DNA of 27,566 nt from a virus. The DNA is taken from IMG/VR virus record IMGVR_UViG_3300030116_002459, positions 1,211 through 28,776 of that record. The stretch is one strand, 5' to 3'. A program made the translations under genes and the position numbers. Positions 132-27,566 of the stretch are shown here, in pieces; within the stretch, counting starts at the first letter, position 1; each line of letters starts with the position of its first letter. Below the pieces are notes generated by a model that made no database searches, was not told the origin of the DNA, and saw only the letters and a program-made list of their open reading frames with translations.

Positions 132-1490
132 TCATTTTAGGTTGGTGATTTTTCCTTGTCCTCTAAAGAAAGTACAACCAGTTTCACCCATTGTTCTGTA
201 AAGTCCTCTGTTTCCAAGTACACCAACACCGAATGGGTTTCCATGATTGATACCATCTTCGAAGTATTGGGTTGGCTTCATAGTTGCAAACCATAAGTGG
301 TTAGTATCTAATAATAACATATCAGATAAACCGCTTGATGCTGAACCAGTCTTAGGCATATCCTTACAAGGAATTAGTGGAATGTCGTAGTATGTTGCTA
401 CTCTGAATCCGACTTCTTGACCTTTTACACCTTTTACACCGTTATGTGTAGGTATGATTTCTTTAGCATCCATGAATCTTTCTTGGCTTTGTAGCAAGTC
501 AGATAATGCTTGGATTGTATCATATCCTGTTAAGATAACATTTGGAGTTCCACCGTTCAATCGTAGGTTTTGGATAACATCATTGATTATACTTAATGTT
601 AAAACTCTACCTGCTGTTGCATATGATGAACCGTAGTTAACTACTGAATCCATGAATGATGCTCCGCTTGCTCTTGATGTGTTACCATAAAGAGTTGTTA
701 CATCAGCATCTAAATCAGCAATAGCAGATGAAACACTTGAAAGTCTATCAAGTTCACCACCGCTGTCTGATAATTCATCATTACTACTAACAATCTTCAA
801 TAGAGAAGTATAGTTTTCACGAATTCTTCCGCTTGAAGTATCTGCTCCAAGTGTATCATAGTTTTCAAGAGGCATTACTAGCATAACTGATTGAGATTCT
901 GCATGGAATTTACCCATATCTTCACGAATAAGTTTTCTAATATCTCCAACACCGTCATCAATCTTTGCCATTTCTGCCGCTAATTCACTGTAGTCAAACA
1001 TGTGAGCAACAATTTTTGGATTCATGTATAGAGTTGTATATTCAGGAGCCAATGCTTTCAGTTGTGTACTGTCTAATGCTTCATTTTCTCCAACACCACC
1101 AATTAAGTCACCATCAGGACTTGCCGCACCTTGAGCGCCAGTTCCAGTTGTAGCACCAACGGAGAATGCCGCCGCTGAACCACCTTGAGGTCTGTTAGTC
1201 ATTACTCTCCATCCACTTGATGTGTATGGCCTTTTAGGTAGAATAGATAATGGGTTTATTTCTTGGTTAATCATTGACCAAACTTTTTGTCCATATACTA
1301 TGTTGTAAAGTGCAGTTAGGTTATTACCTGCTGTACCGTTTAATGTTAATGCTGTGTCACTAGAACCAGTAAATCCACTGTTAATAGAACCAACAATACC
1401 AGCACTTTTCAACAATCCATTCCCAGTACCACCTATGTTACCATAAGTAGCCGCTTCTAAATCTCTTATTGTGTTTATGTATTTTGTCAT
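132..1490 (-). CDS. Major capsid protein, HK97 fold (probable)
   Basis: This 452-aa protein is the probable shell subunit of the virus head. It follows the protease-scaffold gene by 14 nt, the usual order in HK97-type head modules. Its composition is capsid-like: rich in Gly, Ala, Ser, Thr and Asn, without Cys-rich or enzymatic motifs. A helical stretch around residues 175-205 (IREDMGKFHAESQSVM) resembles the spine-helix region. The C-terminal third (NVILTGYDTIQAL through FFRGQGKITNLK) contains the stretch that typically runs from the P domain back into the A domain. The start is chosen at the ATG at 1490, because GGAAGTGA lies just upstream. A GTG three codons earlier overlaps that site. It lacks the W-E-D-I-L-K tag found on many neighbours. 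Identification rests on context and general resemblance, since HK97 capsid sequences diverge strongly. Confidence 0.85.
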   Translation of the reverse strand: MTKYINTIRDLEAATYGNIGGTGNGLLKSAGIVGSINSGFTGSSDTALTLNGTAGNNLTALYNIVYGQKVWSMINQEINPLSILPKRPYTSSGWRVMTNRPQGGSAAAFSVGATTGTGAQGAASPDGDLIGGVGENEALDSTQLKALAPEYTTLYMNPKIVAHMFDYSELAAEMAKIDDGVGDIRKLIREDMGKFHAESQSVMLVMPLENYDTLGADTSSGRIRENYTSLLKIVSSNDELSDSGGELDRLSSVSSAIADLDADVTTLYGNTSRASGASFMDSVVNYGSSYATAGRVLTLSIINDVIQNLRLNGGTPNVILTGYDTIQALSDLLQSQERFMDAKEIIPTHNGVKGVKGQEVGFRVATYYDIPLIPCKDMPKTGSASSGLSDMLLLDTNHLWFATMKPTQYFEDGINHGNPFGVGVLGNRGLYRTMGETGCTFFRGQGKITNLK

Positions 1491-1504
1491 TTTATTCACT
1501 TCCT

Positions 1505-2884: not shown

Positions 2885-5353
2885 TTAATTGTTTCCTAAT
2901 TCAGAATACTTATCTTCTCTTATATCCCATTTACCATCGTCTGTTTTAGGGTCAACAGGTTCAGTCTCTACTCCAGTCCAAGCGAGCCATTTACTTTCAC
3001 CCTTAACAGGTATAACTCTTACATGGAATTTAGTTTCAAACTTATTTCCCTCTAACATGTATTCATGGTAGCCATCCCTTTGAACTCCTAACTTAACTTT
3101 ACCTGAATCAATTAATTTTCCCTTTCTAAATTTAGTTTCGACTTTAGCGGGGAACTTTCCAGATTTACCAAACAGGGAAAAAATATCATCCTCTTCTTCT
3201 ATATCTATTTCCCAACCAATAAGTTCTTTATCTAATTTAAACATTATAGATAAGTTATCATCTTCTTTACGATATACTTTAAATTCACCCTCTCTATATT
3301 GTTTAGGTGTTTCATATTTTTCTATCATATCATATTCTGGAAAAAACTTATTCTCTTCTTTATCATAAGTTATATCTTCTAAATTTTTCATCCAATTTTG
3401 AAGGTCTTTAGATTTAGAATTAAAAATATTATTGAATTCCTTTAGATGTTCCCGTTTAACATATTCTTCTATTTTAGAAAAAGAAAGACCATCTTTATGT
3501 TTCATTAAGAAGTTTTTAATCGCAACTCTAAATTTAGCCTTTTGAGTCTTCAACATATCTTGTATTTGTTCTTTCCAAATATCAATATCCAGTGCGGCAT
3601 TTTTAGCCATTAAATTATTTTCTTCAAAAGTATAAGAGGTAAAACCATCTAATTCAGATTTTAATATAGTAGCACTACCATGAATAGTATCAGTAATCGA
3701 ATAACCTTTTTCTAAAGCCTCTATAGTATAATTGAGGGATTTATCAGTATCATTTGCTAAGAACTCTAAAGTAATTATTTTGTCTGGAAGTTTAACTTCA
3801 GGTATCTCTATTACTTCAGCAGATATTACTTTATATCCATTACTATCTTTTTTAACCTCACTAATTTTTACTCTTACTATATCTCCAATATCGACATTAG
3901 TATTAGTTGGTTTAGTTTTACCAACATTAATATATTCTCTATCATCTACAGTTTTTGTATTTTTAAAATCATCTTTATCGGTTAAAGGACCAGCACCTAA
4001 CTCATAAACAGATTTATTTGACTTAGCAGTTTTATTTAACACTATTAAATCTAAATCTACAAACTTTTTCCATTTAACCCACTTTGGATTTTTCTTAGTT
4101 CCTATAAAGTAAGTAGATGTTTTATCCTTAATAACAACTCCTTCCGCTGTTGGTATCTTCATAATTTCTTCAGCATACTCTTTTACTTCTTTAATAGAAT
4201 CAGCATATCTAGTATCTTTTTTAGAAGGAAATGCTAAGAGTTCATCTGAATGTGTTGAATAATTATTGAACAAAATGGTCATTCTTTCTTCTAATTCTGC
4301 TTCATGTAATTCTTTATCTTCATGCCTCATAATATCAAACACATGCGCTCTTAAAATTAACTCCTCTTTTTTATCGCCTTTAATATATTCAATCACCTTT
4401 GCTCTAGGTAAATGATTTTCCTTATTGAATAATAACAATTCACCATCAAGAATACAATCACCGAAATGTTTTGCTTTCATTATCTTAACTTGTTCGGGGC
4501 ATTTACTGGTTATATCGTCACCCTCAAAGGAATAAATTTTAACCTGTTCATCTATTTTATGAATCTGTATTCTCATACCATCATATTTTTCTTGAACAAC
4601 CCACTCACCAGTAAACCCTAAAAGTTCTTTTAAATCATCTATTTCAAAAATACGATACATCGGTTTGTTAGGAACTAAGAAATGAGAATCAGCCTTTTCT
4701 GCTTTTTGCAAACTAACTAAGTTATCCCAATTTTTCGAACTATGGTGAGAAATATATATTTTTTCTAATAACTTTTTAGCGCCTTTATATTTTCCTTCTA
4801 TTCTTTTAGTATCTTTACCATCACCATAATGCTCTACAATAAAATCTATTACATCTTTTTCTTCTAAGTTTAGTCCCTTTATCCCTGCACTAATAGTATC
4901 GGGTTCAATATCATGCTCTTTCCAAGCATCTTCACTTAACTCTTTATCATGTATTCTGATAGCCCAATGAATAAACTTAGCAAATAAACTTTCATCTTCC
5001 ATCAATTTATCTAGTAATTCATCTTTATACTTTTTAACAAATGGGTCTTTTACCATTTCAGAAGAATATCTTAATTCTTTTATTTGTTCGTATATTTTTC
5101 TAGCGTCATTACTTTCAGGGTCTTCAGCCTCATTAGAAAATAAATCTTTTTCGTTAATAGTTCGTTTTATTTCTTTAGAGAAATCATCTATGTCATCCCA
5201 TTGTTTCCTTAAAGTTTTAATTTCACTTACCCATTTTTTACCATAAGTTTTCTTATCCGATAAAGCAGATAAGTATGACATTCTCATTTTTTCAAAAAAT
5301 TGAATTATTCTTACCGTCAAAACATCTTTATCTTTTTGAAGTAAGAGAGGCAC
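2885..5353 (-). CDS. ATP-dependent DNA ligase with long C-terminal extension
   Basis: This 822-aa enzyme should seal nicks in duplex DNA using ATP. The nucleotidyltransferase core is intact: motif I EKYDGMR with catalytic Lys256, LDGELL at 302-307, motif III HVFDIM at 337-342, motif IV AEGVVIKD at 403-410 with Glu404, and motif V KWVKWKK at 424-430. Residues 85-225 resemble the N-terminal DNA-binding domain of archaeal/eukaryal LigI-type ligases. Residues 431-520 form the OB domain (VDIGDIVRVKISEV). About 300 extra residues follow. The last part (690-795; FKVYRKEDDN through KWLAWTG) recalls the LigD 3'-phosphoesterase fold, but the His-x-Asp-x-Arg metal motif is not visible. The start is a GTG five bases after GGTGAT. 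Its place between head genes, not in a replication module, is unusual. It carries no cargo tag. Confidence 0.92.
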   Translation of the reverse strand: MPLLLQKDKDVLTVRIIQFFEKMRMSYLSALSDKKTYGKKWVSEIKTLRKQWDDIDDFSKEIKRTINEKDLFSNEAEDPESNDARKIYEQIKELRYSSEMVKDPFVKKYKDELLDKLMEDESLFAKFIHWAIRIHDKELSEDAWKEHDIEPDTISAGIKGLNLEEKDVIDFIVEHYGDGKDTKRIEGKYKGAKKLLEKIYISHHSSKNWDNLVSLQKAEKADSHFLVPNKPMYRIFEIDDLKELLGFTGEWVVQEKYDGMRIQIHKIDEQVKIYSFEGDDITSKCPEQVKIMKAKHFGDCILDGELLLFNKENHLPRAKVIEYIKGDKKEELILRAHVFDIMRHEDKELHEAELEERMTILFNNYSTHSDELLAFPSKKDTRYADSIKEVKEYAEEIMKIPTAEGVVIKDKTSTYFIGTKKNPKWVKWKKFVDLDLIVLNKTAKSNKSVYELGAGPLTDKDDFKNTKTVDDREYINVGKTKPTNTNVDIGDIVRVKISEVKKDSNGYKVISAEVIEIPEVKLPDKIITLEFLANDTDKSLNYTIEALEKGYSITDTIHGSATILKSELDGFTSYTFEENNLMAKNAALDIDIWKEQIQDMLKTQKAKFRVAIKNFLMKHKDGLSFSKIEEYVKREHLKEFNNIFNSKSKDLQNWMKNLEDITYDKEENKFFPEYDMIEKYETPKQYREGEFKVYRKEDDNLSIMFKLDKELIGWEIDIEEEDDIFSLFGKSGKFPAKVETKFRKGKLIDSGKVKLGVQRDGYHEYMLEGNKFETKFHVRVIPVKGESKWLAWTGVETEPVDPKTDDGKWDIREDKYSELGNN

Positions 5354-11115: not shown

Positions 11116-11328
11116 TCATCTCACTCTTTGTTCCCAAACAACAGGGCCATAATTATCAGCCCTAAAAGTATCTCTTTTCATCATAACTGTAAACTTTCCA
11201 TCTTTTTCCCTAATAACATGAGGAACAGCAAAAGACCACTGGAATGCTAATCTTCTTGCTTTATCAAAATCATCAAATGTTTTCCTAGAACCCATTTCTC
11301 CTAATTTTAAAACTGAAACCCAACTCAT
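11116..11328 (-). CDS. Tagged small protein after the portal, unknown
   Basis: This 70-aa protein starts MSWVSVLKLGE, a tag variant. The remainder forms a small alpha/beta unit: helix DFDKARRLAFQWSF, then strands PHVIREKDGKFTVMMKR and PVVWEQRV. Its ATG overlaps the end of the portal gene and is preceded by GAGGTGGG. It could be a portal-associated or connector-region factor because of its place, but no family is recognised. Confidence 0.8.
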   Translation of the reverse strand: MSWVSVLKLGEMGSRKTFDDFDKARRLAFQWSFAVPHVIREKDGKFTVMMKRDTFRADNYGPVVWEQRVR

Positions 11329-12974
11329 TATATCCCACCTCTTTCAGTTCTTCTATCTACGTTATTATTAGCGGCATCTCTTGGTAAACCTTTACTACGA
11401 TTAGGTGGCCCTACGCTCATCTTGGGTTTAGACTTTACTTTTTCAGGCTGTCCCGCTTCTGTTGCTGTGGGTCTAGTTCCCGCTTCCATCATTTGTCCTA
11501 GTTGTGATTGGTCAATATCAGTTCCAGCATAAGGGTCAGATTCAATAGGTTTATCTTCTTCACCCTCTACGCCTTCTTGCTCTTTAGGTTCGGGTTTCTT
11601 AAATGTAAAATTACCTTCATCATCCATATCAACTTCAAATCCTAAATTCTTTATTTGACCAGCAATATTAACTTCTATCTCTCTTTTACGCATAACCGCT
11701 ATTTCGTCTTCTTCTTCGGATGGAGGGAGAACTAATTTCCAATCAGTTATACCAAATTGTTTTACTAGGAACGGGAATACATATTTATTGTAAACATTTT
11801 GTGCCATTTCTACAGCCCTATTTGTTACAAGTATTTGCATACCTTCATTATTTAAACCACCACTAGCAGAGTTATCAGCCATAAAGATTTTACTTACACC
11901 ATAGAAAGCGGCTACTCTATCTCTTAAATCCTCCTTAACAGAGATATAATCCATTTCTTTTAGGCTATCCATAAACTTAACCCATTCTACAGAACCTCTA
12001 CCGTTTTCTGCCTCTATTCCCATAACAGGAATAAAGTGAGCATCTTGCTCCATCTTTTCTTTTACTCCTCTCCAGAAAGTTTTCATTGATTCTATATTTC
12101 TAGTTTGAACAGCCAATAACCCTTTTGGCATTCTTGCTTTTGTATATGCTTGGTTGATATAATTCTCCATAGCAATTAAAGTTGTTAAATGATTCCATAG
12201 TGTTATTACTGGGCTTGTACCATATAACCTACTAGGTGAATACTTACTAAAATGGAGAACTTCTCCCTTGATGAAATTCTGTTCATAACCATGCGCCCTA
12301 TTTACATAGTGAACAGGATACATATCCCCACCGCATTCCTCACATTTTTCATGAGGTTCTGTAGTAACTATATCTCTATGATGAAGACATGTGTAAGCAT
12401 TTCCACCCTTATTACCTTCATCGTCACAAACTATAGCCATAGTTACTGGGTCTGCTCTATAAATTTCTTTTATTTTATGCGCTCTAATATTACCATTACC
12501 ATCAATAAAATATTCCTTAACTAATACAATATATGCATCGTCCATAATATTTAGGTCATCCTCTAATTCCTTTAAAACATCAATAAACATTTGCTCTGAT
12601 TCATTAATATATTCAGCATTCATAAATTTATTAGCATACATTTTTTGATTTTTATCAGGTTTTCTAAGATTAGTAGAATCACACTCAGAACATCTATCTA
12701 CACTCTGTTCATGCTCTTTACCACAATCAACACATTTAACTGCAAATTTAGGTTTCCATTCATAACCTCTTCTAAATATTTCATTTTTTAATTGAGTTAT
12801 ACAAGTTCTAAGAATGACAGAACTATCTGCAACATGATAAACTATAGGGCCAGTCATCATCAAAGGATGATGTCTTTCTTGTATTCCCATTTGATAAACT
12901 TCTCTATCAGCAGGGATAGGTGTTGACTTCCTAAAGAAATTAGCAATCCTAAATCTTAATTTTTCTCTAGCCAT
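11328..12974 (-). CDS. Portal protein with zinc-ribbon-like insertions
   Basis: This 548-aa protein should form the dodecameric portal ring through which DNA is packaged and ejected. Portal-like features are GEVLHFSKYSPSRLYGTSP (237-255) followed by a long helix (NHLTTLIAMENYINQAY), then the FYGVSKIFMADNSA region (357-370) and helix NRAVEMAQNVYNKYVFPFL near 385-403. Two Cys-rich knuckles interrupt the N-terminal half. The first is C81-x2-C84 with C95-x2-C98. The second is C196 plus nearby His198/199 with C211-x2-C214. Each looks like a zinc ribbon. The C-terminal 90 residues are acidic, then Pro/Gly-rich and disordered. GAGGAG precedes the ATG, and the gene abuts the LAGLIDADG gene. No cargo tag is present. 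Confidence 0.9.
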   Translation of the reverse strand: MAREKLRFRIANFFRKSTPIPADREVYQMGIQERHHPLMMTGPIVYHVADSSVILRTCITQLKNEIFRRGYEWKPKFAVKCVDCGKEHEQSVDRCSECDSTNLRKPDKNQKMYANKFMNAEYINESEQMFIDVLKELEDDLNIMDDAYIVLVKEYFIDGNGNIRAHKIKEIYRADPVTMAIVCDDEGNKGGNAYTCLHHRDIVTTEPHEKCEECGGDMYPVHYVNRAHGYEQNFIKGEVLHFSKYSPSRLYGTSPVITLWNHLTTLIAMENYINQAYTKARMPKGLLAVQTRNIESMKTFWRGVKEKMEQDAHFIPVMGIEAENGRGSVEWVKFMDSLKEMDYISVKEDLRDRVAAFYGVSKIFMADNSASGGLNNEGMQILVTNRAVEMAQNVYNKYVFPFLVKQFGITDWKLVLPPSEEEDEIAVMRKREIEVNIAGQIKNLGFEVDMDDEGNFTFKKPEPKEQEGVEGEEDKPIESDPYAGTDIDQSQLGQMMEAGTRPTATEAGQPEKVKSKPKMSVGPPNRSKGLPRDAANNNVDRRTERGGI

Positions 12975-14323
12975 TATACAACAACTCCTCTTTCTAACTC
13001 ATCCATAACACTCATTTTATTATTCCCCTTATACTTTGCAATGTCCTCTTCGTAAATACCATCCTTAGAAAAGTCATAATTTACGTGGTCTGCGTGGTTG
13101 GCCCATTTCATCAACTTAAATAATTCTTGCATTCTTTCTTTAGCCCAAGATGCTTTTTTATGGTTTTTCTTTATACGAATTAACTCAGTGAGAATATCAG
13201 CATTATCGCCTTTCATTCTAAAATAAGGACGACATTTACTTAATAATTTAGTAATGTCATCTTGAGAATAAAAGTTTAATCTTTGTACTGCTCTAGTTGC
13301 TTGTGGGGATTTTTGGTCTAAGTGTAATTTACCACAACCTAGTTCTTTATGTAATTCAGTTACAAATGCTTTACCTCTATTACCTGTGGCAATGATTCCA
13401 ATTCTAGGATTAAAGTTTCTATCCATAGTAATATACCCATCTGAATCTATAAAAGCCGCAGTATAAGCGTGTAAATCTTTTTTAATTTCCATAGGTAATT
13501 TATAATATTCTCCATCAATATTAGTAATATCCATTTTATCTGCTATTTTGCAAATTATTTGAGGGGAAGCCCGCCTATGTAATTTATTAGGTAATCTATC
13601 ATATATTTGTCTAGCAGATATACCTTGTTCATTACATACTGATTTAAGAACAAAATCATTTAATTGTTCTGTTATGTTTGATTTAACAGGAGCAATATTT
13701 TTTATTATTTTATTGAATTCCTTTTTGGCATTAGTCATATTTTTAGAACAAGAAGAATAGTTAGAATTGTATTCATCCCCTCGGTGTAAAGAAGATTCCC
13801 AATATTTACATAAAACATCTATAACTTCTCTTCTAGTATCTACATCTTTTATAGAATGTAATTTTTTTAAATCTGATTCTGAATATGTCATTTGTTTTAA
13901 AGGAATTTCATATGGTGATAACCAATAAATAGATTTTATACAATCATCCAAATGACTTGAGTATGCAAAAATTAAATTTTCTATATTTTTAGTTAAGGCT
14001 GTTCTATCTTGTCCTTTTATTCCCCTTCTATATTTTCTCAAATCTTTAACTATATCAGGAATAGTTTTATCAGATATTACATATTGTTTAGGAAAAGAAT
14101 CTAATTGTGATTTTGCCTCAGTAATATTCATATTATACTGTTTAGAAACACTTAATGCTACTTCATAATCACTCATAAGAGGTAAAGTTGAAACCCATTT
14201 ATCAACTGTTTCTAACTGGTCTTTTATTTCTTGTTCTCTATCTTTTAATTCTGCCAATTCACTAACTCTTTGTGCTTCTTCACGAAGTTTATCTCCTTCT
14301 TCACTTTTAGAAATTAAGTCCAA
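12974..14323 (-). CDS. LAGLIDADG-type endonuclease-domain protein
   Basis: This protein of about 449 aa joins a long helical N-terminal region, a winged-helix-like segment and a LAGLIDADG homing-endonuclease-like domain. Numbered from the upstream GTG at 14332, the wHTH is near residues 218-278 (NEQGISARQIYDRL, then a wing ITNIDGEYYKL). The LAGLIDADG helix is at 287-300 (LHAYTAAFIDSDGY, acidic Asp296/Asp298). It is followed by beta strands (RIGIIATGN) and ELHKELGCGKL. Only one such motif is present, so it would act as a homodimer. The start is taken as TTG at 14323, seven bases after GGAGGT; the GTG at 14332 overlaps that site. It overlaps the large terminase end and abuts the portal. It is not inside an intron or intein that I can see. 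A domesticated DNA-binding or packaging role is possible. Confidence 0.82.
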   Translation of the reverse strand: MDLISKSEEGDKLREEAQRVSELAELKDREQEIKDQLETVDKWVSTLPLMSDYEVALSVSKQYNMNITEAKSQLDSFPKQYVISDKTIPDIVKDLRKYRRGIKGQDRTALTKNIENLIFAYSSHLDDCIKSIYWLSPYEIPLKQMTYSESDLKKLHSIKDVDTRREVIDVLCKYWESSLHRGDEYNSNYSSCSKNMTNAKKEFNKIIKNIAPVKSNITEQLNDFVLKSVCNEQGISARQIYDRLPNKLHRRASPQIICKIADKMDITNIDGEYYKLPMEIKKDLHAYTAAFIDSDGYITMDRNFNPRIGIIATGNRGKAFVTELHKELGCGKLHLDQKSPQATRAVQRLNFYSQDDITKLLSKCRPYFRMKGDNADILTELIRIKKNHKKASWAKERMQELFKLMKWANHADHVNYDFSKDGIYEEDIAKYKGNNKMSVMDELERGVVV

Positions 14324-15776
14324 ACATGCCACCTCCTATACTGAGCGCCTGTGGTTGCTCGTTATCAAATATTGCCATATCATCTAATAAAACAATTGAT
14401 TCTAACATATCATGTGTAGCGGAATTAGCAAGAGCGAGTCCCATAACTAAGTCATCGTGCGCACCCACCCCTTCAAACTTTCCACTGTCAGTAATACTAA
14501 ACATGGATAATTCCTCTATAATATTATCAGTCACTTTTCTTGATTCATCATTTCCTCTAGGGAATATAATCTTAGCGTTTTCTATATTCATTTGTAAATT
14601 AAGAATAATTTCTTCTTTCTTTCTACGAGTCATGGTAACATCTCTAATGTTTAAATCAGTTTCATTTCGCAACTCTTGAGTAAAAGATTTAGCAAATGTA
14701 TTTGTTTCAAAATAGATTACATCAGGCTCAAATAATTGAGCAACCATTTTTATTTTATTTATGTTATCTCTAAACTCTACATTCTTTTGCCTATCAACAT
14801 AAATGATTCTTTTATTTCTTTGTTCATCTACTTCTAAAACCATAATAACATTATAATCACCATCAGTAGAAATAGCAGGGTCAACCCCTACATAGTAATT
14901 ATACCCCGAATCCTTTCTATGTCTTAATCGTAGAATATCTTTTTTACCTGCTTCTCTACATGCATCTATATGTTCTTGAGCGAATAAAGCAGTTCCAGTA
15001 GATATAGGAATACATAGATATTCTCTTGTAAATTTCAATGAACCTACTTCCTTTTTTCTTTGCATTAGAGAATCATAATCCCAACGAGAAGGCCATAAAG
15101 GTTCATTGTTTTGATTTAGACATGGGTAATTTCTAACAGTATAAACCTCTGAATATTCTTCACTGGCTAATAAACTAAAAATATCTGTATAAGTAAAGGG
15201 TGTACCTATCATTCTTAGACTAGCAGTATGGTGAAGCGTAGGAATCATATCCCCAAAAAACCAATCTGTAACTTTTTTAATAGCAGTTAAACTGAATTCT
15301 TTTAAGGGGTCATCAATGATTATTTCTTGAGGATGAAGTCCTCTAATCTGAGAACCTACTGAACGTTCTAAAATTGAATTACCATTAGTGAGAGTAATAT
15401 TTCCTACAGCCCATCCTCTTGACGGCCTAAAATGAGCAATGGTAGGGTTGTTAAATATTTTATCTATATCTCTCATATGAACCATAGTCTGTTTATGATT
15501 AGATGAAATGTATAACATTTGATATGGTGGGGGCTGAAAGCATAACTGCCATACTGCCCACGAATGCATGAATACGGATTTTCCGTGGTCACGACTACAG
15601 ATAACAACAGTTCTATCAGTTGTATTCATTAAGTCTAACCATTCTTGGTGAAAAGCAGTAAACTCAAAACCTAAAACTTCTGTAAAGAAATAAGGAAAAG
15701 AATTTTTAGATAACTCTAAATCCATATTTCTACTAAAGTCTAAATTCTCTATACTAATCTTAATTCCTCCATCCAA
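14307..15776 (-). CDS. Terminase large subunit
   Basis: This 489-aa protein is the ATP-driven packaging motor and genome nuclease. The ATPase has a Walker A variant CSRDHGKS (60-67) with Lys66, Walker B EIIIDDP (151-157), and a coupling motif IGTP (190-193). The RNase H-like nuclease has Asp299 in VGVDPA, Glu357 in YFETN and Asp441/Asp442 in HDDLVMG. All are intact, so it should be functional. Length is normal for the family. The start is uncertain. The frame opens with a TTG at 15776 that lacks a ribosome site. GGAGG lies inside the next codons, and Met18 (NMDLELSKNSFPYFF) is an alternative close to where the family homology begins. It overlaps the genes on both sides and lies about 7.8 kb downstream of the probable small subunit. 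Confidence 0.95.
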   Translation of the reverse strand: MDGGIKISIENLDFSRNMDLELSKNSFPYFFTEVLGFEFTAFHQEWLDLMNTTDRTVVICSRDHGKSVFMHSWAVWQLCFQPPPYQMLYISSNHKQTMVHMRDIDKIFNNPTIAHFRPSRGWAVGNITLTNGNSILERSVGSQIRGLHPQEIIIDDPLKEFSLTAIKKVTDWFFGDMIPTLHHTASLRMIGTPFTYTDIFSLLASEEYSEVYTVRNYPCLNQNNEPLWPSRWDYDSLMQRKKEVGSLKFTREYLCIPISTGTALFAQEHIDACREAGKKDILRLRHRKDSGYNYYVGVDPAISTDGDYNVIMVLEVDEQRNKRIIYVDRQKNVEFRDNINKIKMVAQLFEPDVIYFETNTFAKSFTQELRNETDLNIRDVTMTRRKKEEIILNLQMNIENAKIIFPRGNDESRKVTDNIIEELSMFSITDSGKFEGVGAHDDLVMGLALANSATHDMLESIVLLDDMAIFDNEQPQALSIGGGMFGLNF

Positions 15777-26808: not shown

Positions 26809-27324
26809 TCATTTTACCCGCCTCTTTGTGGGAAAGGGATTAAAATCTTCTTTACTCCTTCCGTATATTTGTCCTCTATGATGCGGGTTTTTACGTTTAT
26901 CTTTCCAAATATTTACAAAATTAGTGGGGGATAACCCCTTTATATTTGGGCCAAAGGATTGAAACGTTTGAAAAGTAATTGTCCCTTTACCCGCTAATTT
27001 AAACATTATAGTGTCTAAATTACTTTTATCTTTGAATCTCCATGCCCAAAAATTACCACTTCTACCCCACTTATCAGAGTCTTTTATTGCATCCACCCAA
27101 GTTTCCATTTCATTTGTATTTTTTGTTTTACCTCTTTTAGTGGCATTAAACAGATAATGAGGACTAACATTAACATTACCAACTTTATCTCTCATCCCTA
27201 TGTTTTTACCCCATCCTCTTGTATGGGCAACCTCTCTTCTAAAGGTAGTTCTTCTTGGTTCGGGCATAGGATGTGGTTCATAATACTCAGGGGGAAATAA
27301 CTTCAGAACATCTTCCCAACTCAT
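26809..27324 (-). CDS. Tagged protein, unknown
   Basis: This 171-aa protein starts MSWEDVLKLFPPEYYEPHPM. After the tag come a Pro/Tyr/His-rich linker and a basic, aromatic-rich domain (WVDAIKDSDKWGRSGNFWAW, then TIMFKLAGKGTITFQTFQSF). A basic tail follows (KNPHHRGQIYGRSK). The ATG overlaps the stop of the HMG-CoA lyase-like gene by 4 nt (ATGA), with AGATGATT upstream. I recognise no family. It is the first tagged gene in transcription order in this window. Confidence 0.86.
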   Translation of the reverse strand: MSWEDVLKLFPPEYYEPHPMPEPRRTTFRREVAHTRGWGKNIGMRDKVGNVNVSPHYLFNATKRGKTKNTNEMETWVDAIKDSDKWGRSGNFWAWRFKDKSNLDTIMFKLAGKGTITFQTFQSFGPNIKGLSPTNFVNIWKDKRKNPHHRGQIYGRSKEDFNPFPTKRRVK

Positions 27325-27566
27325 ACAATCATCTCTGGAACTTTACCTTTTAGCCAATAAGCCAATTTGTCAATAGCCGCCAAATCAACTCCCGTCTGAT
27401 AACCTCGACTATCTGCCCAACTAATCAATTTATTCGTTGAAAGGTTATTTCCGCTATTCGGCATAAAAGGACATCCACCTAAACCAGCAATACTACCATC
27501 AAAAGTAGTTATACCCCATTCTACCGCCGCATCAACGCTCCTAAACATATCATTTTTACCTTCATG
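27321..27566 (-). CDS. Hydroxymethylglutaryl-CoA lyase-like protein, C-terminal part
   Basis: The reading frame stays open to the right edge, so this is the last 81 residues of a longer protein; the ATG at 27548 is internal. The segment GITTFDGSIAGLGGCPFMP followed by NNLSTNKLISWADSRGYQTG and VDL matches the C-terminal signature of HMG-CoA lyases (S-V/I-A-G-L-G-G-C-P-Y/F, then G-N-x-A/S-T, then G-x-x-T-G-V/I-D). It includes the active-site loop cysteine. HMG-CoA lyase splits HMG-CoA to acetyl-CoA and acetoacetate in the DRE-TIM metallolyase family. The frame reaches ATGA overlap with a tagged virus gene, so it belongs to the viral operon. A related aldolase with another acyl-CoA substrate is possible, because the N-terminal catalytic half is outside the window. 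Confidence 0.85.
   Translation of the reverse strand, partial: HEGKNDMFRSVDAAVEWGITTFDGSIAGLGGCPFMPNSGNNLSTNKLISWADSRGYQTGVDLAAIDKLAYWLKGKVPEMIV

Follow-up and report, generated by a model that had tools for sequence, protein, structure and literature searches.

A likely HMG-CoA lyase gene carried alongside the structural genes of a putative magrovirus

The window (the whole 27,566-nucleotide stretch of viral DNA analyzed here) encodes viral structural proteins and, at its right edge, the 3' part of a gene of the HMG-CoA lyase family (Table 1). This edge is also the end of the record (G000:C1:1211-28776 of 28776), so the 5' part of the frame is cut off and the N-terminal two thirds of the protein are absent from the window copy. 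Re-reading of the letters confirmed the initial annotation of an 81-residue frame that shares an ATGA with a tagged gene: the fragment, on the minus strand, contains SIAGLGGCPFMPNSGNNLSTN (SIAGLGGCPF) and TGVD, and it holds the second metal His, the GLGGCPF loop with the catalytic Cys, and the metal-ligand Asn. The fragment matched NCBIfam NF004283 (HMG-CoA lyase) with an E value of 2.8e-15 over profile positions 211-284, and a structure-sequence search matched it to solved HMG-CoA lyases with E values down to 1.5e-11, thus the resemblance is not due to chance.

Table 1 Features of the window used in this analysis.
Feature	Position	Strand	Remarks
Major capsid protein	132..1499	minus	Nearest GenBank phages are the haloviruses HCTV-1 and HVTV-1
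Portal protein	11328..12974	minus	Nearest GenBank phages are the haloviruses HCTV-5 and HVTV-1
Terminase large subunit	14307..15776	minus	Transcribed in the direction of the lyase; used to place the virus
Next gene of the operon (171 aa)	26809..27324	minus	Tagged, starts MSWEDVLK; no Pfam family
ATGA overlap	27321..27324	minus	Stop codon (TGA) of the lyase and ATG of the next gene
HMG-CoA lyase-family gene, C-terminal 81 codons and stop	27321..27566	minus	Cut by the contig end

Complete versions of the gene were found in related viruses. A scan of viral contigs yielded eight records with a lyase gene, and in five of them (L002-L006) a complete protein of 274-279 aa, 74-80% identical to the fragment, is encoded at the matching position; in all five, the start of the downstream gene overlaps the lyase stop as ATGA or GTGA, much as in the window. 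A second scan using the alignment raised the set to 14 records, and four further lyase-bearing records were found among the capsid or terminase relatives. The viral lyases start with EVGPRDGLQN or close variants, which is the D-R-E region. The N-terminal D-R-E motif, the TIM-barrel half and the metal His residues expected from the initial annotation are therefore all present in the full-length viral copies, and these copies group with HMG-CoA lyases rather than with another aldolase or synthase.

The full-length proteins of the relatives matched NF004283 (PRK05692) over their entire length with E values of about 1e-69, and the human HMG-CoA lyase with an E value of 2.2e-48. R41, D42, E72, D204, H233, H235, C266 and N275 (human numbering), which we take to be the catalytic and metal-binding residues of the human enzyme, are invariant across the 14 full-length viral copies in the alignment; the window fragment covers H235, C266 and N275 and keeps all three. 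An AlphaFold model of the L004 copy (pLDDT 91.7) aligned to eight HMG-CoA lyase entries with Z scores of 35.5-37.0 (37.0 for the human enzyme), and to other DRE-TIM enzymes with Z scores of 27.6 or less. It is very improbable that the gene encodes one of these other enzymes, i.e., isopropylmalate synthase, homocitrate synthase or 4-hydroxy-2-oxovalerate aldolase. They have the barrel fold in common with it and gave weak secondary profile matches, but the HMG-CoA lyase profile was ahead by about 175 bits or more and the HMG-CoA lyase structures by 9 Z units, and the GLGGCPF loop is present. With at best 56 bits against about 232 for HMG-CoA lyase, this assignment was rejected.

The viral copies also depart from cellular enzymes at residues that are usually fixed there. 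All 14 viral copies have V at S201, most have E-G at D236-T237, the pair that follows the second metal His, and G239 is lost. Against the curated naming cut-off of NF004283 (246 bits), the close relatives of the window, whose own copy is a fragment, scored just below at about 232-235 bits, and two viral copies scored above (G003, 251; G004, 259.2). Taking the conserved residues and the model together with these changes and scores, HMG-CoA is the likely substrate, short of proof. The main rival reading is that of a changed acyl-CoA specificity, in which the viral clade would cleave a related 3-hydroxy acyl-CoA (e.g., a methylmalyl- or citramalyl-type CoA ester) instead of HMG-CoA. A long stem branch of the viral clade, S201V together with D236E/T237G (the latter adjoining a metal His), the location of some family homologues next to CoA-transferase genes rather than leucine-degradation genes, and a family member (6nds) solved with CoA and 3-methylmalate are all in keeping with such a change. 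We nevertheless consider it unlikely, as every catalytic and metal residue is kept and the viral copies branch apart from the CoA-transferase-linked sequences.

To place the virus, we relied on the terminase, portal and capsid proteins. The HCTV and HVTV haloviruses, to which the window's portal and capsid proteins are nearest, are published relatives of magroviruses (PMC10768690). The window terminase is 91% identical to that of G019, whose PolB is split in two and which also encodes an ATP-dependent DNA ligase, an RFC-like clamp loader and a GroEL-like chaperonin, in a region absent from the 28.8-kb window record. At 87.65 kb, G019 is also in line with the genome length of about 90 kb expected for this group. 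Such replication and chaperonin genes, with HMG-CoA lyase as an auxiliary gene, are described in the ICTV profile of the Aoguangviridae (PMC10768690). Based on the halovirus-like portal and capsid, the gene set of G019 and the ICTV description, the window most likely represents part of the genome of an aoguangvirid or a near relative in the order Magrovirales. The host, Poseidoniales (Marine Group II), is taken from the literature on the virus group (PMC10768690) and would apply to the window through this placement.

Several other features of these genomes were recorded. In a 72.8-kb relative, the PolB match (L243, G020:C1:8362-9405) crosses five in-frame stops (three TGA and two TAA), which may reflect the interval separating the pieces of a split PolB, or else a broken gene. 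Amid its structural genes, the window encodes a protein of 822 aa (2885-5353, minus strand) that includes an ATP-dependent DNA ligase domain; in a relative, a separate full DNA ligase is found in the replication region (L246:4428-5963). A 452-aa ORF between the terminase and portal genes (12974-14332, minus strand) has FIDSDGYI, which by eye resembles LAGLIDADG homing enzymes; it matched no Pfam family at an E value of 0.001. An ORF of close to this length comes after the terminase in L016 and L022.

The lyase is patchily distributed. It was found in 4 of 43 records selected for their similarity in capsid or terminase and in 3 of the 18 related records of 80 kb or longer, and none was seen in two long relatives whose terminases are 87-89% identical (G020 and G022). 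This agrees with the report that magrovirus auxiliary genes are sporadic (PMC10160649). Where present, the lyase is on the same strand as the terminase (19/19 lyase-bearing records), at or near the head of the structural gene row in the window's group, and between the terminase and a portal-like gene (portal likeness by eye) in G003, G008 and G017. Together, the profile match and the full-length relatives bear out that an archaeal virus carries an HMG-CoA lyase-family gene within its structural operon. The lyase is without the N-terminal MSWEDILK-type tag seen on its neighbors, which suggests that it is not a virion component. A search of 17 viral records with the lyase gave no thiolase match, and hence no neighboring CoA-pathway step was seen; the enzyme would thus probably work on host metabolites.

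The tag itself is widespread. At least ten minus-strand ORFs of the window (e.g., 27324, 24984, 24599, 17396, 7103 and 6822) start with M(S/T/G/E/N)WxxxLK, and in the distant lyase-bearing viruses L007, L009 and L023 many genes start with AFDxAWxLLK or PMDIAMRLLK instead, which suggests a putative common N-terminal signal in the virus group.

Among close relatives, the lyase showed dN of 0.02-0.18 and dS of 0.18-1.4 (dN/dS roughly 0.1-0.2); with dN far below dS, purifying selection acts on the viral lyase. When placed in a tree with 20 non-magrovirus sequences (bacterial, two phage-labelled contigs and human), the viral copies formed one clade apart from all 20 (support 100/100), on a stem of about 1.0 change per column, and the window fragment joined the G013 copy (98/91). 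A scan of genome contigs for cellular homologues returned three bacterial sequences (32-35% identity) and zero archaeal ones. These data bear on whether the window gene might be mis-assembled host DNA, or a decaying passenger without function. The fragment is at the very end of a contig and the gene is patchy, but homologues occupy the matching place with the same type of overlap on five separate contigs, the lyase is present inside viral records of 87-109 kb, dN/dS is well below 1, and there is one viral clade, which together make an artifact or a decaying gene highly improbable.

A separate observation concerns CAKLQH020000001.1, labelled "Acinetobacter phage MD-2021a" (L061), in which an HMG-CoA lyase-like gene is annotated as leuA. 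Its neighbors are CoA-transferase, transporter and catalase genes, and the stretch looks bacterial-chromosomal rather than phage.

Exchange of the lyase between related viruses was considered. Grouping by capsid identity was rejected by the lyase data (AU p 5e-5), and the lyases of G000 and G002 are 73% identical although their capsids are identical, whereas a single inheritance of the lyase within the terminase-defined clade was not rejected (p 0.25). Such exchange may thus have taken place. The window, G002 and G014 encode the same major capsid protein (100% identity) but differ in their terminases (98%) and lyases (72-73%), which points to genome mosaicism or strongly unequal rates.

Overall, we consider it about 75% probable that the 3' gene end in the window comes from an auxiliary metabolic gene of a magrovirus, one of the tailed viruses of Marine Group II (Poseidoniales), and that this gene encodes a catalytically intact HMG-CoA lyase. 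Weighed against this reading were the long viral stem, the virus-specific residue changes, the scores under the cut-off, the lack of a thiolase and the patchy occurrence. The protein is a metal-dependent TIM barrel. Judging by its conserved residues, it most likely cleaves HMG-CoA to acetyl-CoA and acetoacetate with the help of an Arg-Asp pair, the Cys of the GLGGCPF loop, and a metal surrounded by two His and an Asn. Its position and strand among the structural genes suggest that it is read with them, probably late, and the untagged protein would probably act in soluble form inside the infected cell. The virus would likely benefit by drawing HMG-CoA off the mevalonate and membrane lipid route and returning acetyl-CoA late in infection; alternatively, the enzyme may complete leucine breakdown, also yielding acetyl-CoA. 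A more speculative reading, to which we give little weight, is that the viral lyases form an ancient branch confined to viruses and, with the rim of the active site shifted, act on another CoA ester or are tuned for the diversion of HMG-CoA from archaeal membrane-lipid synthesis. To our knowledge, the take-over of lipid precursors has been shown for no archaeal virus.

In archaea, lipid synthesis and catabolism diverge at HMG-CoA, and for this reason a viral enzyme acting on it could reprogram an abundant uncultured archaeon of the ocean. The initial annotation regarded the lyase as unfamiliar among virus-borne metabolic genes, which does not hold, since HMG-CoA lyase was already named in 2023 as a magrovirus auxiliary gene (Xu et al. 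2023, PMC10160649); it is also named as an auxiliary gene of the Aoguangviridae in the ICTV profile (PMC10768690). In the literature on Marine Group II together with leucine degradation or HMG-CoA lyase, we found the magrovirus paper only. A virus-borne HMG-CoA lyase is therefore largely known, and the enzyme assignment is well supported; what is added here is support for an intact enzyme, for selection, for one viral lineage and for carriage with structural genes.

The comparison with known systems covers viruses and cells. The split PolB, GroEL-like chaperonin, RFC-like clamp loader and DNA ligase of G019, the close relative of the window, are likewise those of the Aoguangviridae and magroviruses, and the window terminase shares about 69% identity with its counterpart in the aoguangvirid-like G003 (92.8 kb). 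With the cellular HMG-CoA lyases of human (2cw6) and B. subtilis (1ydo), the viral proteins share the full-length barrel and all catalytic and metal residues at about 30-36% identity over the whole chain; unlike them, they carry S201V and, following the HxH motif, mostly E-G where the cellular enzymes have D-T, and they form a separate clade. An HMGL-like protein of matching fold (TM 0.90, 29% identity) is also virus-encoded in Klosneuvirus KNV1 (A0A1V0SKU2), which we take to be a giant virus of eukaryotes.
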